Shown here piece by piece: positions 1 to 43,817 of a stretch of DNA of 43,817 nt. Each line of letters begins with the position of its first letter. The stretch's first letter is position 1. The DNA comes from a virus. Under the pieces are notes generated by a model that searched no databases, was not told the origin of the DNA, and worked only from the letters and a program-made list of their open reading frames with translations. The DNA lies in IMG/VR virus record IMGVR_UViG_3300049440_000019, positions 1-43,817 of that record. One strand, written 5' to 3'. A program made the position numbers and the translations under genes.

Positions 1-127
1 AGGATCCCGATACCGCTGGTGTCTCCTCTGGAACATCGGTCAATATCCGGTACAACCGGAGTGTTGGTGTCGATCCGTTCAGCAGTCCTGGATTCCTCAA
101 GCTTCTTCCGGAGATGAACAAGTCTGC
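1..127. repeat. Left copy of 127-bp terminal identity (circular closure)
   Basis: Bases 1-127 are identical to 43691-43817. The reading frame of the tail gene continues from the right copy into the left copy without interruption, so the repeat marks closure of a circular or circularly permuted genome of 43,690 bp. An overlap of exactly 127 bp is a common assembler k-mer length, so a biological terminal repeat is less likely. Confidence 0.95.
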
Positions 128-1874
128 TGCATACAGCCCATTGACTGCCGGATCCCGGATCCGAGCTGCAAGCTACATCAGTGGAAGCCTTGGGGTCAGC
201 AAGCTTTGGCTTGCTGACATGAACAATGCGGTTGTGACATCGGCAACTGTCGGAACCTCCGACGTATCGATCAACTATTCGACTACCCTGGGCGCCACTG
301 GCATCTTCTCCAACCTTGTCACATACCACGCTGCCACTCAGATAGCTGCTGTCAACTATCCGACCCTGTATGTGATGACTGCTGGAACCACTGCTGGAAG
401 CAGTGGCCTATGGAAGATCACCGATAATGGGGGGGCACTCACTGCCACCCTGATCTATGTCTCGCCAGTGTCTTTCGCATTTGCGGCCAGGGCGGAGATG
501 GTCAACTCCCGTGGGTTCATCTATGTTGCGGTGAACAATTCCCTGTGGCAACTTGACCCGAATGCTGGTGCCGCTACCGCATGGCCAGCCACTCCGGTTG
601 CTACTGTTCCAGCTGATCAGTCCATCACTTGCGTGGTCGATGGACCAGATGCCGTCTACGTCTCTGCCAACAACTTTGACAGTGGATACATCTACAAGTC
701 AACGTTCAGCAATACTGGAGTAGTGAATGGACTGACTCAGGCAGCCATCATGCCAAAGGGTGAGTTCATCAACCAGATGGCTGCATATGTTGCCACCTAC
801 ATGGTGATATCCACTAACACGACCATCAGGGTCGGAGGCTTTGCCTCTGGTGGTATCGACTATGGATCGCCCCTTGTCACCGTTCCAGCGGAAGCCGACA
901 GTCCAACAGAGCCAACTGGCCTGGGCGGAGTCGGCTTCGGGTCCATAGCATTCTTTGGATCCAAGGCTTTCGTGGGAACTCAGACCATATCGAGTCTGCA
1001 CGATGGTGCCCAAGGCACCATCTGCATTGATCTGTCTACGATACTCACGGACCAGAACACCGGATCAGTGTTCAATCCATATTCCACATGGACCTACAAT
1101 CCAGCCATCATAGGAAGGATCGACAGCGTAACCGTCGATCCCTTGGGTCGCTTGATATACAGCAGCATGGATGACACGATCCCAGGATCTCCAGTGTCAT
1201 CCTTGTGGATCCAGCATGCCAGTAACCTTATCAGCCTTGGCTACCTTGATACTGGTCGGGTCAGGTTCAACACTGTTGAGCCGAAGCTCTTCAAGTACTT
1301 CTCGGTTCGTACCCCAATTCCCCTGCAAGGAGACCTTACGGTCTCCGTTCTGGGTGATGACAACAGCTTGACCAACTACATCACCTACGGTCCGACCATG
1401 GATCCTGGCACTACGGATGTCTCTACTCCTACGCCCGTCGGCCCCAGGAACTACGAGGCCCTGAGATTCACTCTTCACAGGGGAAGCACCGATCCTTCGA
1501 TCGGTGCTGTTCTGGATTCCTGGCAGATCAAGGCCCTTCCTGGGACACTCAAGCAGAGGACCATCGTCAAGCAGTTCCTCTGCTTCAATAGTGAGAAGGA
1601 CAAGTCCGGCTCTTATGTCAAGGCTGACGACCAGTCCCTGACTCAGCTCACTGCCATCAGGCAGATGTGCCAGCGTGGAGACACTGTCACCTTCCAGGAT
1701 CTGGTGAACAACATCTCCGATCAGGTCATTATTGATGACTACCAGTTCACCATGCTGGCTCCGCCTGGCCCCAACAGGGAGAACTATGGTGGCTATCTGA
1801 CGGTCACCATGAGGACTGTTGCCGACTCTGTTCCCCCGATCTCTCAGGCTGGCTCTAGCTCTGGAGACGACTGA
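1..1874 (+). CDS. Large tail protein, 3' part (gene crosses the contig ends)
   Basis: The gene starts at the ATG at 43411 and continues through the circular junction, giving about 717 aa in all. Only the 3' portion lies here, open from base 3 to the TGA at 1872-1874. The product is rich in Gly, Ser, Thr and aromatic residues, with repeated short segments such as GRLIYSSMDD and GFIYVAVNNSLWQLD that look like beta-propeller blades. The C-terminus (about residues 630-700) looks like a compact beta domain. It follows a fibre-like gene and precedes lysis-type genes, so a tail or receptor-interacting structural role is inferred. The stop overlaps the next ATG by one base. No enzymatic motif was recognised. 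Confidence 0.75.
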   Translation, partial: DPDTAGVSSGTSVNIRYNRSVGVDPFSSPGFLKLLPEMNKSAAYSPLTAGSRIRAASYISGSLGVSKLWLADMNNAVVTSATVGTSDVSINYSTTLGATGIFSNLVTYHAATQIAAVNYPTLYVMTAGTTAGSSGLWKITDNGGALTATLIYVSPVSFAFAARAEMVNSRGFIYVAVNNSLWQLDPNAGAATAWPATPVATVPADQSITCVVDGPDAVYVSANNFDSGYIYKSTFSNTGVVNGLTQAAIMPKGEFINQMAAYVATYMVISTNTTIRVGGFASGGIDYGSPLVTVPAEADSPTEPTGLGGVGFGSIAFFGSKAFVGTQTISSLHDGAQGTICIDLSTILTDQNTGSVFNPYSTWTYNPAIIGRIDSVTVDPLGRLIYSSMDDTIPGSPVSSLWIQHASNLISLGYLDTGRVRFNTVEPKLFKYFSVRTPIPLQGDLTVSVLGDDNSLTNYITYGPTMDPGTTDVSTPTPVGPRNYEALRFTLHRGSTDPSIGAVLDSWQIKALPGTLKQRTIVKQFLCFNSEKDKSGSYVKADDQSLTQLTAIRQMCQRGDTVTFQDLVNNISDQVIIDDYQFTMLAPPGPNRENYGGYLTVTMRTVADSVPPISQAGSSSGDD

Positions 1875-15900: not shown

Positions 15901-16347
15901 CTACTCAGAGTCAGTCTTGTAGACGATGGTGGCTCCATCGATCAGGCCAGCATCGGCAGCCAGAAAAGAAAGCTGATTGTGCTCAGCCTGAAGGCCGTTG
16001 AAGTTGGCCAGCAGTTCATTGTACTTCTGCTCAGCTCGATCCAGAAGATCCGAGTAGCCGTTGATGACAGACTCATTCTCGGCATTCTCGACAGCGAGCC
16101 GCTGGGCTCGCTCAATCACCTCCTGGTGCTGATCGGGGTGGATGTAGCCGACAGCACGAAGGGCTGCGGCACTGCTGGAATTCTCGCCAACAGCCCTGAC
16201 CAGATCAGCCACGGCATAGACGTTCATGTTGCCGAACTTGCCAGCGGGCTTGGTTCCAGCCTTCTCGATCCAGTTCTTCAGGTTGGTCGGATTGGCGCCG
16301 ATCTTCTTGGCGTAGTCCGCGAGACTGCTGTAGTCATCGAAGTTCAT
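15901..16347 (-). CDS. 148-aa protein with MerR/XRE-like start and coiled coil
   Basis: The start is ATG 16347, with GGGAGGAGAGAC directly upstream; the longer frame upstream crosses hairpins. Residues 5-35 (SLADYAKKIGANPTNLKNWI) look like a helix-turn-helix with an invariant-looking W at its end, followed by NVYAVADLVRAVG. The C-terminal half is a long helix (QEVIERAQRLAVENAENES) with coiled-coil spacing. A DNA-binding regulator is possible. It was not recognised as a named family. Confidence 0.6.
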   Translation of the reverse strand: MNFDDYSSLADYAKKIGANPTNLKNWIEKAGTKPAGKFGNMNVYAVADLVRAVGENSSSAAALRAVGYIHPDQHQEVIERAQRLAVENAENESVINGYSDLLDRAEQKYNELLANFNGLQAEHNQLSFLAADAGLIDGATIVYKTDSE

Positions 16348-16385
16348 GTCTCTCCTCCCATAGGCAATCCCGAGCGGGATTAGAA

Positions 16386-16408
16386 TGTGCGGCTTCGAGA
16401 GCCGCACA
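16386..16408 (-). promoter_or_regulatory. CTCGA-loop hairpin upstream of 148-aa gene
   Basis: Nine-bp stem (TGTGCGGCT with AGCCGCACA) and loop CTCGA on the transcribed strand, followed by a smaller AATCCCG/CGGGATT inverted repeat and the GGGAGGAGAG ribosome site. Confidence 0.7.
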
Positions 16409-16415
16409 AACCAAA

Positions 16416-16580
16416 CTACTCGGTCTCGTACACACCGACAGTGATGCTGTCTCCGTGATCCATGATGGTGACTGCGAACCGGTAGTTCACATCGCAATCA
16501 GTGAGCATGGAGACCATCTCAATGAGCTTGTCAGCCTCGGGGGTTCCCTTGGCCGCTCTGTCTTCCCGGATAACCCTCAT
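16416..16580 (-). CDS. 54-aa hypothetical protein
   Basis: The start ATG 16580 is in an ATGA overlap with the upstream gene. A basic N-terminus (MRVIREDRAAKG) and helix precede two strands (YRFAVTIMDHGD, ITVGVYETE). It is similar in size and layout to the next gene (strand-ending small proteins). It was not recognised. Confidence 0.65.
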   Translation of the reverse strand: MRVIREDRAAKGTPEADKLIEMVSMLTDCDVNYRFAVTIMDHGDSITVGVYETE

Positions 16581-19227: not shown

Positions 19228-19256
19228 ACTCTAGTGAGTCGGTTTCTTGCTGTCAA
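19228..19256 (-). promoter_or_regulatory. Leftward sigma-70-like promoter
   Basis: On the minus strand TTGACA (19256-19251), 17 bases, TAGAGT (19233-19228). The -35 is consensus and the spacing ideal. It should drive the 18898-13257 block. The start of transcription would be near 19221. Confidence 0.8.
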
Positions 19257-19561: not shown

Positions 19562-19822
19562 TCACGATGCTGATCCATCGACCATCTTCTTGGCCTTCAA
19601 GTACTCGGAGACCGAGTCATTGAGGTGCTTCCAGGCCCCAGAGGTGTCCTTCTGAGCGCTCTCACGCTCACCCTGGTCATACAGGCCGTACCTGCGCTCC
19701 GCGTCCCTCAGTGCCTGCCTCCTGCCATCCGGGCTTGAGGCACTGCTCCAACCGATGAACTGGTTGGCACTGATCAGGATGTAGCGCTTCTCATGAGGCA
19801 CGAGGAAGAATCCTCGTGTCAC
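19562..19822 (-). CDS. 86-aa hypothetical protein
   Basis: GTG 19822 lies in a GTGA overlap with the upstream gene. It has an N-terminal strand region (GFFLVPHEKRYILISANQFI), a basic helix (DGRRQALRDAERRYG) and a terminal acidic helix. It was not recognised. The gene pair 20100-19562 is its own small unit. Confidence 0.65.
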   Translation of the reverse strand: MTRGFFLVPHEKRYILISANQFIGWSSASSPDGRRQALRDAERRYGLYDQGERESAQKDTSGAWKHLNDSVSEYLKAKKMVDGSAS

Positions 19823-20100
19823 TGCACATACCAGGGCTCAGCGGAAAGGTCACCAGACAGACCCGACTCCCAGACCCACGAGTAGCTGGTGCAGCCACGG
19901 TCGTGGAGCTTGCCCGTCATAACGGCCTCCACGCAGCACTCCTCCCACGCATCGAACGGGGAGTGGAAGAGGCAGAAGTGCTGACCATCGAAGGTGTGAG
20001 CAGCCTCGGATCCGGTGCCGCAGTCCTTGAACTGGCAGGCCGATCCCGGCTTGGCGAGCGTGAGCCTGCCATCCGCCTTCATGCGCTCGGCGTAGGTCAT
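19819..20100 (-). CDS. 93-aa Cys/His protein
   Basis: The start is ATG 20100, with AAGGAG eight bases upstream. It has a cysteine/histidine-rich middle (SACQFKDCGTG, HTFDGQHFCLFH), suggesting a zinc site, then ECCVEAVMTGKLHDRGC. It lies beside the origin-like region, so it may be an early regulator. Family unknown. Confidence 0.65.
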   Translation of the reverse strand: MTYAERMKADGRLTLAKPGSACQFKDCGTGSEAAHTFDGQHFCLFHSPFDAWEECCVEAVMTGKLHDRGCTSYSWVWESGLSGDLSAEPWYVQ

Positions 20101-20333: not shown

Positions 20334-20361
20334 ACGTGTGCGCATGTGTGCGCGCGTGTAC
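20334..20361. other. 28-base alternating purine-pyrimidine tract
   Basis: Every base from 20334 to 20361 alternates purine and pyrimidine, with a GCGCGCG core. Such tracts can form Z-DNA under negative supercoiling. It lies beside the iterons. Confidence 0.8.
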
Positions 20362-20396
20362 TAGCACATCACCAATCGCGGGTCAATACATACTCG

Positions 20397-20444
20397 GTAT
20401 GTACCAGGCTATGTGCCAATGTATGTACCAAGGTATGTACTACG
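20397..20444 (+). repeat. Four tandem 12-bp iterons
   Basis: Units begin at 20397, 20409, 20421 and 20433, with core GTATGTAC in units 1, 3 and 4 and CTATGTGC in unit 2, each followed by a CCAGG/CCAAT/CCAAG-type spacer. An inverted near-copy (ATACATACTC) lies just upstream. Exact 12-base periodicity suggests cooperative binding of an initiator or repressor. Confidence 0.75.
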
Positions 20445-20453
20445 CCCCCCTTT

Positions 20454-20486
20454 GTTGAACATTCAACCTTCAACAGACTGTTGAAG
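20454..20486. promoter_or_regulatory. Paired operator-like sites with GTTGAA/TTCAAC half-sites
   Basis: GTTGAA-CA-TTCAAC (20454-20467) is followed by CTTCAACAG-A-CTGTTGAAG (20468-20486). Four copies of the same half-site occur within 33 bases. This is a likely dimeric-repressor or initiator site. Confidence 0.65.
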
Positions 20487-21000
20487 CAGCCCATCCGCCC
20501 TCCTTCTCGTCACACTGACGATAACCTTGTGAACATGTGAATGGTCTAGACCACTATGTATGGGCATGCATGGTCATGTATACCTATGAGTTAGGTTAGG
20601 CTACCCTGACCATGGCCAGTATGCCCCATCATGTCATGCTATGCCCAGGCAAGCCAGGCAAACCGGACATCACAGTCAGACCAGGGCAGGCTGGGGCAAA
20701 GCTACCCGGGGCATACTTAATCGGGCGCGGTAGTGGGGTGTGAGTCCCCTCAAATATCCTGCATAGTCTATGTAACCTACGTCACATCCTATATAGTCAG
20801 GACCCGAAGGACCCTTGTCCCACATGGCCCCTAACTCCTTTGCCAAACCTTTACCAAAATACTTGCTGGACCCACGTCCAAAAAAGGGCTAAAATCAACA
20901 GTATATATAGTGAGGGAGAAAGTTTCGCCAGCAGGGGCCGGTGTAGGCCACCAGAGGCGTGGGTGCGAAGCTTGATCCTAGGGACGACGGAGATGTCCTG

Positions 21001-21363: not shown

Positions 21364-23268
21364 ATGGCCATCATCCGCGAACTCACCCAACCAGAGAAGA
21401 AGCGGGCCTACCTCAAGCTCCGCCAGGCTGGCGTGAAGTCGGGGGTAGCTGCCCAGGAAGTTGGCATCACGCCTCAAGGCGTGAGTGCCTGGCGTAGGTC
21501 TGATGCGGACTTCCGCGAGGCTGATCAGAGGATCAAGCTGGTTCGCCTGGAGGATCAGCCCGAGGCGAACCAGAACATGCCGAGCTTCCCAGAGTTCTGC
21601 ATGAAGTACCTGGATACCCAGTTGTTCAATCATCACCTCCAGTGGCTCGATCTTCTGGAGGATCGTGAGCCCAGGAACTTGCACCCGAACCAGACGTACA
21701 TCAAGGGTGACAACGAGAACATCCTGATCAACACTCCACCTGAGCATGCGAAGTCAACCACCATCACGGTGAACTACGTGACCTATCGGATCTGTGAGGA
21801 TCCGAACATCCGTATCATCATCGTGTCCCAGACTCAGGAGCTTGCCAAGCGGTTCCTTGTGGCGATCAAGGATCGCCTTGCAGGGCAGAACCTGAACTAC
21901 CGCAAGCTCCAGATCGACTTCGCGCCGGACGGCGGGTTCGACAAGAACTCGGCATCGTGGAGTGCCAATGCCATCTATGTCTCCTCGAACCTTCGCGACT
22001 CTGGTGAGGCGACTCCTTCGGTCCAGGCCATCGGGATCAACGGCCAGATCTATGGGAACCGTGCAGACCTGGTCATCATGGATGACTGTGTGACCGGTAA
22101 GAACGCCCACGAGTACCAGAAGCAGATGGACTGGATCCAGCGAGAGGTGTCCAACCGCCTCTCGCCTGGTGGCAAGATGCTCCTGGTGGGCACTCGGCTT
22201 GCTCCTACTGATCTCTATGGTGAGATCATCAAGGGTGACTACTACGGGGACGAGGAGTCCCCGTGGACCTATCTGTCTCAGCCTGCTGTTCTTGAGTTCG
22301 ATGAGGACTCGGACAAGTGGACTACTCTGTGGCCTCGCTCCAATCGTCCCCCCGTTTCGGTGGCTGGCAGGGCCTTGAGCCAGAAGGACAAGGATGGCCT
22401 CTATCCTTACTGGACTGGCGCCGCTCTCAAGAAGCGGCGCGCCAAGATGTCTCCCAGGAACTGGGCCCTTGTCTACCAGCAGGAGAGGATGGTCGAGGAT
22501 GCCATCTTCACCCAGAATGCTGTTCTGGGATCTGTGGATGGTGCCCGTGCACCTGGCCCCATGGGTGGTGATACGGTTGACGGCCGACCCAATGGCATCG
22601 AGGGCTGCTATGTGGTGGGCGGTTTCGACCCTGCCATGACCGGCCATAGTGCTGCCATTGTGATTGCCATGGACCGGCGCACTGGTGTGCGCTGGGTCCT
22701 TGATGTATGGACCAAGGCAAACTGCAAGCCTGACGACCTCTTTGACAAGATCAAAGAGTGGACAGTGAAGTATCGCATGAACGAGTGGCGTATCGAGAAG
22801 AACGCCATGAACCTCATGGTGACGCAGAACCGGGAGATCCGGAGCTTCCTGGCAACCAGAGGTTGTCTTCTGAGGGAGCACTTCACTGGATCCAACAAGT
22901 GGGACAGTGACTTCGGTGTAGCTTCCATGTCCATGCTGTTCGATGGCTGGGAGAACAAGAAGCAGTTGATCAGGCTTCCGCGCAAGAGCGCAGAAGGCGT
23001 CAAGGCTCTGATCGAGCAGCTGACTACTTGGGAGCCTGATCCACCTGGCACCAGGACGAAGCGCAAGACCGACTGCGTGATGGCCCTATGGTTTGCTGAG
23101 ATCCGCTGTCGTGAACTGGTAGATGAACTCAGCCAGAAGGAAGAGCACCATATAGCCAACCCTTGGTTGACAGAGCGAGACCGCAACAAGCAGGCAGTGA
23201 TCGATCTTGACTACATGGCACAGTCTGCGATGCATGGAGACTCTACGATGAACTGGTGGTCGGGGTGA
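21364..23268 (+). CDS. terL: Terminase large subunit
   Basis: 634 aa. Residues 24-47 (VKSGVAAQEVGITPQGVSAW) look like a small-terminase-type helix-turn-helix fused to the N-terminus. The ATPase has a variant P-loop NTPPEHAKST (about 123-132) and Walker B ADLVIMDD (234-241). The nuclease has FDPAMTGHSA (D422), RIEKNAMN (E478) and TKRKTDCVMA (D570), the acidic triad of the RNase-H-like fold. It powers DNA packaging and cuts the concatemer. No separate small terminase was found, so the N-terminal helix-turn-helix may serve DNA recognition. The ATG is preceded by AAAGG within a small hairpin. Confidence 0.95.
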   Translation: MAIIRELTQPEKKRAYLKLRQAGVKSGVAAQEVGITPQGVSAWRRSDADFREADQRIKLVRLEDQPEANQNMPSFPEFCMKYLDTQLFNHHLQWLDLLEDREPRNLHPNQTYIKGDNENILINTPPEHAKSTTITVNYVTYRICEDPNIRIIIVSQTQELAKRFLVAIKDRLAGQNLNYRKLQIDFAPDGGFDKNSASWSANAIYVSSNLRDSGEATPSVQAIGINGQIYGNRADLVIMDDCVTGKNAHEYQKQMDWIQREVSNRLSPGGKMLLVGTRLAPTDLYGEIIKGDYYGDEESPWTYLSQPAVLEFDEDSDKWTTLWPRSNRPPVSVAGRALSQKDKDGLYPYWTGAALKKRRAKMSPRNWALVYQQERMVEDAIFTQNAVLGSVDGARAPGPMGGDTVDGRPNGIEGCYVVGGFDPAMTGHSAAIVIAMDRRTGVRWVLDVWTKANCKPDDLFDKIKEWTVKYRMNEWRIEKNAMNLMVTQNREIRSFLATRGCLLREHFTGSNKWDSDFGVASMSMLFDGWENKKQLIRLPRKSAEGVKALIEQLTTWEPDPPGTRTKRKTDCVMALWFAEIRCRELVDELSQKEEHHIANPWLTERDRNKQAVIDLDYMAQSAMHGDSTMNWWSG

Positions 23269-43410: not shown

Positions 43411-43817
43411 ATGGGTTTCGGAACCCTTATCCAGCGAATCACATACAAGATCAGTGGCCGGAGCGCTGCAAGCTCCGGCCTCTATACTCCATCTACCTAC
43501 GTCTATGACTATGCAGTTGGTGGAACTCCGTTCATGTCGGCGACAGCTGATCAGCGTCCCGACACTGAGAAGCCTGTAGGCCAACGCAAGCAGCAGTTCG
43601 ACAACTTCAAGGATCCCGGTGAGTACAGCCTTGATCAGTGGTGGCTTCGCTCCCAGAACTCCTTCACCGGTGGAGCCGGTGTCCTCTACCAGGATCCCGA
43701 TACCGCTGGTGTCTCCTCTGGAACATCGGTCAATATCCGGTACAACCGGAGTGTTGGTGTCGATCCGTTCAGCAGTCCTGGATTCCTCAAGCTTCTTCCG
43801 GAGATGAACAAGTCTGC
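43411..43817 (+). CDS. Large tail protein, 5' part (continues at base 1)
   Basis: ATG 43411, preceded by AAGGGG. Open to the end of the window and in frame with the segment at 1-1874 after circular closure, giving about 717 aa. The first residues (MGFGTLIQRITYKISGRSA) are followed by strand-rich sequence (YDYAVGGTPFMSATADQ). A 9-bp hairpin (43456-43480) lies inside. See the 1-1874 entry for the rest. Confidence 0.85.
   Translation, partial: MGFGTLIQRITYKISGRSAASSGLYTPSTYVYDYAVGGTPFMSATADQRPDTEKPVGQRKQQFDNFKDPGEYSLDQWWLRSQNSFTGGAGVLYQDPDTAGVSSGTSVNIRYNRSVGVDPFSSPGFLKLLPEMNKS
43691..43817. repeat. Right copy of 127-bp terminal identity
   Basis: This is identical to bases 1-127. It should be counted once when the genome is circularised. 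Confidence 0.95.

Follow-up and report, generated by a model that had tools for sequence, protein, structure and literature searches.

This locus raises the question of what is served by four 12-bp direct repeats lying in a long non-coding gap of a viral genome, repeats that a preliminary description had proposed as a candidate origin of replication. The window analysed here is the whole stretch of 43,817 nucleotides of IMG/VR record IMGVR_UViG_3300049440_000019. The array occupies positions 20397-20444 on the plus strand, with units resembling GTATGTACC(A/G)(A/G)G that start at 20397 (GTATGTACCAGG), 20409 (CTATGTGCCAAT, the variant unit), 20421 (GTATGTACCAAG) and 20433 (GTATGTACTACG). Upstream of these, on the minus strand at 20386-20393, is an inverted near-copy of the unit, GTATGTAT, which together with unit 1 reads TACATAC-TCG-GTATGTA. 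The gap holding the array measures 1,263 bp and runs from the first small leftward gene (19819-20100, minus strand), which begins with an ATG at 20100 preceded by the ribosome-binding site AAGGAG, as read from the sequence, to the gene for the terminase large subunit (TerL; 21364-23268, plus strand). A family search with the small gene gave no significant match. The four units, one of them variant, the inverted near-copy and the 1.26-kb non-coding region of the preliminary description were all confirmed.

The window amounts to a near-complete genome, in permuted form, of a relative of the Beephvirinae (cluster BF), which are podoviruses of Streptomyces. Its permutation is evident from one gene that is divided over the two ends of the window (114-1874 and 43411-43817). 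TerL, the product of the first late gene, shares 66-67% amino acid identity with that of Stella and other isolates and, together with much of the gene map, matches the cluster BF phages, the late and early modules being collinear. In the closest relative, the contig locus L006, TerL is 96% identical to that of the window.

Judged from homology, the gap holding the array is the meeting point of the physical genome ends. When the two ends of each record were compared directly, seven isolates had terminal repeats of 253-276 bp; the same comparison gave 396 bp with a different start for Abafar, which was left out of this set. For FlowerPower and sister phages, a published terminal repeat measures 253 bp (PMC9753666). 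With a slash marking the end, the isolates read GTACA/ at the left in five of seven cases, GTATA/ in Dennebes and GGACT/ in WRightOn, in each case followed by GTCCC (GTCCT in RosePharie), and GTG/AGTCCC at the right. The window holds both the expected left-end core and GTG/AGTCCC, at the expected spacing. The core of its left junction, GTACTA (20437-20442, plus strand), falls within unit 4, and because it is invariant in all eight aligned sequences and is followed by a C-rich run, we infer a left end near 20441/20442, inside unit 4, which would on the same grounds be partly cut-site sequence. A second GTACTA at 20358-20363 is a less likely left end, since the C-rich run is missing there. The right end would fall at 20742/20743, in GGGGTGTG/AGTCCCC (GGGGTGTG/AGTCCC at 20735-20748), and homology to the seven isolates thereby predicts a direct terminal repeat of ~301 bp (20442-20742, plus strand), present in the contig as a single collapsed copy. 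The window shares with the termini of cluster BF (FlowerPower, Stella, Manuel and others) the succession of early genes, terminus and TerL, the left-end core and the right end GTG/AGTCCC, whereas its predicted repeat is longer than the reported 253 bp.

The internal repetition of the array is by itself only moderately surprising. It is the best tandem repeat in the window (TRF score 62; next best 41), and at period 12 none of 200 dinucleotide shuffles got to 27 of 36 adjacent matches; with any period between 8 and 24 allowed, 5 of 200 shuffles showed an equal fraction of matches, and repetition alone is not conclusive because 4 of 60 shuffles attained a TRF score of at least 62. An independent and stronger test came from related phages, where visual inspection first revealed doublets, with 12-bp spacing, of a unit like TTTGTACCA. 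A matrix was built without the window and without the isolates, and then applied to them; four of the sequences that went into it (L066, L071, L151 and L152) had been picked up by scanning for the doublet pattern. Scored in this way, the array reached 26.2, 23.8 and 22.7, whereas the next-best window site scored 11.1, and none of 300 window shuffles matched the array.

The relatives' matrix detected 12-bp-spaced doublets, with GTTTGTACCAAG as their consensus, close to the terminus in 12 of 34 related loci and in 5 of 8 isolates, so the 12-bp periodicity that had been suggested as something to look for in related phages does recur, albeit patchily: L006 lacks the repeats. In a genome-wide matrix scan, a single outstanding doublet, non-coding and near the terminus, was seen in each of six genomes, namely the window (its array), WRightOn, FlowerPower, Manuel, Abafar and Dennebes; this uniqueness holds for these six whole genomes, the contig loci consisting of the TerL-proximal flank only. 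The same scan found no doublet in Stella, Immanuel3 or RosePharie; in Immanuel3 the corresponding position is occupied by another direct repeat. Shuffle tests covered the window and four isolates, leaving Abafar aside, and the observed doublet score was reached by 0 of 100 shuffles each for WRightOn, FlowerPower, Manuel and Dennebes. With leave-one-out scoring, 13 of 35 TerL loci (window included) scored 15 or more, a rough fraction given near-duplicate loci (for example L014/L017/L018/L019/L041) and some loci with little upstream DNA. L039 and L045, neither of them in the training set, are among the 13, and spacings other than 12 scored lower in the positive loci. The orientation of the doublet varies between phages, as does its distance from the left end, which was read only where that end is recognisable (it is not clear in, for example, L013/L028 and L152). 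In the window the array adjoins the left end, whereas the doublet lies ~158-233 bp to its left in doublet-bearing isolates with a defined end, ~55 bp to its left in L007, up to ~270 bp to its left in L023 and ~25-50 bp inside the repeat in L030. Units 1-3 belong to this recurring element, which resembles a DNA-binding site and has its largest copy in the window. Compared with relatives, the window array has three units where two are usual, plus a fourth whose sequence also serves as the conserved cut-site core.

We put a probability of roughly 45% on the array being bound cooperatively by a DNA-binding protein and serving, most likely, as an operator in leftward early transcription. A phage or host protein would recognise TNTGTACCA as a monomer, and monomers would bind side by side on the 12-bp direct repeats, an arrangement suggested by direct repeats with one spacing. 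Lying at the left boundary of the terminal repeat and upstream of the leftward early genes, the array would control a leftward early promoter in that stretch. Computation showed the repeats, their 12-bp-spaced recurrence close to relatives' termini and, through homology, where the terminal repeat begins; we infer protein binding, its cooperativity and the transcriptional output. The patchy presence of the element, its changes of orientation and its substitution in Immanuel3 are as expected of an operator in turnover, rather than of an obligatory cut signal, and the enrichment of regulator-type palindromes around the array, described below, was also counted in favour of an operator. Directly beside the array, on the minus strand at 20358-20386, there is a weak promoter-like sequence, TTGACC-N17-TAGTAC, which has a -10 element without the final T and was not among the matches of the consensus promoter scan. 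A good leftward promoter match, TTGACA-N17-TAGAGT, was observed at 19228-19256 on the minus strand, with an rRNA-leader-like TTGANNNCTCAATAG downstream of it.

Among the points against an operator, integrase, HTH_17 and MerR-type genes were looked for in the window genome and none was found (there was no PF00589 match, while positive controls were detected), and this search identified no candidate for the array binder. The head-to-tail operators of Streptomyces BldC (PMC5859096) resemble the array: in both, the direct repeats vary in number and could accommodate asymmetric monomers next to one another. However, the BldC repeats, AATTNNNN(C), are 9 bp long, whereas those of the array are 12 bp long with the core TGTACCA, and BldC was rejected as the binder on this misfit of repeat length and core.

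The uniqueness of the doublet and its nearness to the cut site fit packaging too. Under this somewhat unlikely alternative, terminase, probably its small subunit, recognises the repeats and thereby positions the cut for the left genome end. The window array runs in phase into the conserved core GTACTA, doublets fall between ~270 bp to the left and ~50 bp to the right of the left end where both can be placed, each of the six genomes scanned in full has a single site, and a small early protein of Dennebes is annotated as terminase small subunit. However, the array is not conserved alongside terminase in close relatives, and an obligatory terminase signal is disfavoured by the finding that L006 lacks the repeats despite its 96% identity in TerL; the small subunit of L006 might differ from that of the window. 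Moreover, the cut core is also conserved in doublet-free phages, the doublet flips its orientation from phage to phage, and direct repeats running into the cut core proved not to be a group-wide feature when 17 phages were tested (combined p = 0.25). The gene at 15901-16497, which has a weak match to PHROG 141 (E 0.033), was considered as a terminase small subunit and set aside, as no relatives turned up in viral contigs.

It is quite improbable that the units are initiator iterons of a replication origin, and the array is more probably a control site. Like iteron-type origins, the array is made of short tandem direct repeats in a long stretch of non-coding DNA, and it recurs in relatives. In contrast to such origins, neither an initiator gene nor an AT-rich element was found, and the array is patchy among close relatives, being absent from L006, Stella, Immanuel3 and RosePharie. 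As in the preliminary description, no initiator gene came to light, here in Pfam and PHROGs scans of early ORFs, many of which encode unknown proteins. The local GC content (0.52-0.53 in 1-kb windows, against about 0.55 elsewhere) reveals no AT-rich stretch, and the helicase and primase genes are 13-15 kb from the array. The earlier view of an initiator- or repressor-type array between divergent gene blocks can be retained for the type of binding array, the non-coding setting and the 12-bp recurrence, but not for the origin label, given that the region would be the genome-end junction, with unit 4 as the left-end core.

It is very improbable that the repeats are, or once were, arm-type sites bound by a tyrosine recombinase. 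The pattern TTTGTACCA-N3-TTTGTACCA matched at least 118 genome-contig stretches, many of them outside long open frames; in L272 an integrase gene lies 93 bp from a TTTGTACCA doublet, and viral contigs had 46 stretches at spacing 12 as against 8 at spacing 13. Yet the scans of genome and viral contigs were partly dominated by repetitive coding sequence, the viral spacing effect coming in part from the codon phase of repetitive proteins. Integrase arm sites were rejected because the window genome has no integrase and, of ten neighbouring proteins that were tested elsewhere, just one was an integrase. In many unrelated bacteria, among them Streptococcus, cyanobacteria and Balneolaceae (L227-L341), we also observed non-coding TTTGTACCA doublets at 12 bp. 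Four TTTGTACCA units were seen at L126:144-187, near the left end of a contig encoding a Phi29-type SSB. A fortuitous, functionless short tandem duplication beside the cut site is just as improbable, since the only moderately rare internal repetition and a cut core that accounts for unit 4 are set against the independent relatives' matrix, with its 0 of 300 shuffles.

Further right, in the TerL leader, a promoter-like TATATATAGTGAGGG is followed by a structured RNA element (20902-20969, plus strand), identified by alignment and compensatory changes. The element, which comes after TATATATAG and has the layout AGCAGG-stem-ACCAGAGGCRTRG, is common to thirteen sequences: the window, L006, L007, L008, L009, L010, L011, L013, L016 and L020-L023. 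Its inner helix pairs in 13 of 13 sequences, with both sides changed in three of four pairs (variants GACC/GGTC, GGCC/GGCC, ACCC/GGGT and GGTC/GACC). A first, hand-written outer helix was paired in only 42% of cells, whereas the RNAalifold outer helix (columns 10-15 with 51-56) pairs better but was itself fitted to this alignment. No Rfam family reached its gathering score over the element, and a leader function such as antitermination can only be guessed at.

The terminus also holds sites resembling those of host regulators, all on the plus strand of the window. Within the terminal repeat, a motif search found a DasR dre-like palindrome, TGGTCTAGACCA (20542-20553; consensus A(G/C)TGGTCTAGACCA(G/C)T, PMC4398421), an iron-box-like site of DmdR1/DtxR type, TTAGGTTAGGCTACCCTGA (20591-20609), with two mismatches to the search consensus (for published DmdR1 sites, see PMC7174319), and a palindrome, TTCTCGTCACACTGACGATAA (20504-20524); just to the right of the repeat is a Crp-like TGTAACCTACGTCACA (20771-20786). 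When motifs were counted in 36 terminus regions (50 kb) and compared with the mean of 20 dinucleotide shuffles, we found the DasR core 15 times versus 0.1 (in four regions, two of them near-identical), the iron box 11 times versus 0.2 (8 of 36 regions), the Crp motif 49 times versus 2.75 (29 of 36), the palindrome TTATCGTCANNNTGACGATAA 11 times versus 0.15 (10 of 36) and a BldC-site-like CAAANCGGACAT 42 times versus 0.55 (14 of 36), while scaled counts outside the termini, in the window and seven isolates, were 0 to 1.2. These ratios overstate the evidence, because motifs and thresholds were chosen after seeing examples and the motifs were counted in the sequences from which they had been picked; the match to the published DasR and DmdR1 consensus sites is independent of this bias. 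Among relatives, the dre-like TGGTCTAGACCA was also seen in L011, L014 and L018, iron-box-like sites in L006, L007 (three copies), L009, L010, L011, L016 and L020, and a Crp-like TGTGAN6TCACA just right of the terminal repeat in many. The window's terminal repeat contains, in addition, short CATGYAT-type repeats of 10-bp period (20555-20583; TRF period 10 at 20556-20578), and CATGYATNNN repeats were noticed by eye in the middle of the terminal repeat of many relatives (L008, L013, L014, L025, L026).

More speculatively, and in our view unlikely as a whole, the terminus could be a hub at which global regulators of the host dock (DasR, DmdR1/DtxR, Crp and perhaps BldC), with the array as a further operator of this kind; early transcription or the handling of the genome would then be tuned to the nutritional or developmental state of the host. 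If host proteins do bind these regulator-like sites, infection would be linked to GlcNAc, iron and cAMP signalling in the host. A guessed origin is replaced by a probable terminal-repeat boundary and a recurring 12-bp element, which may be tested in cultured phages, for example Manuel on S. lividans.
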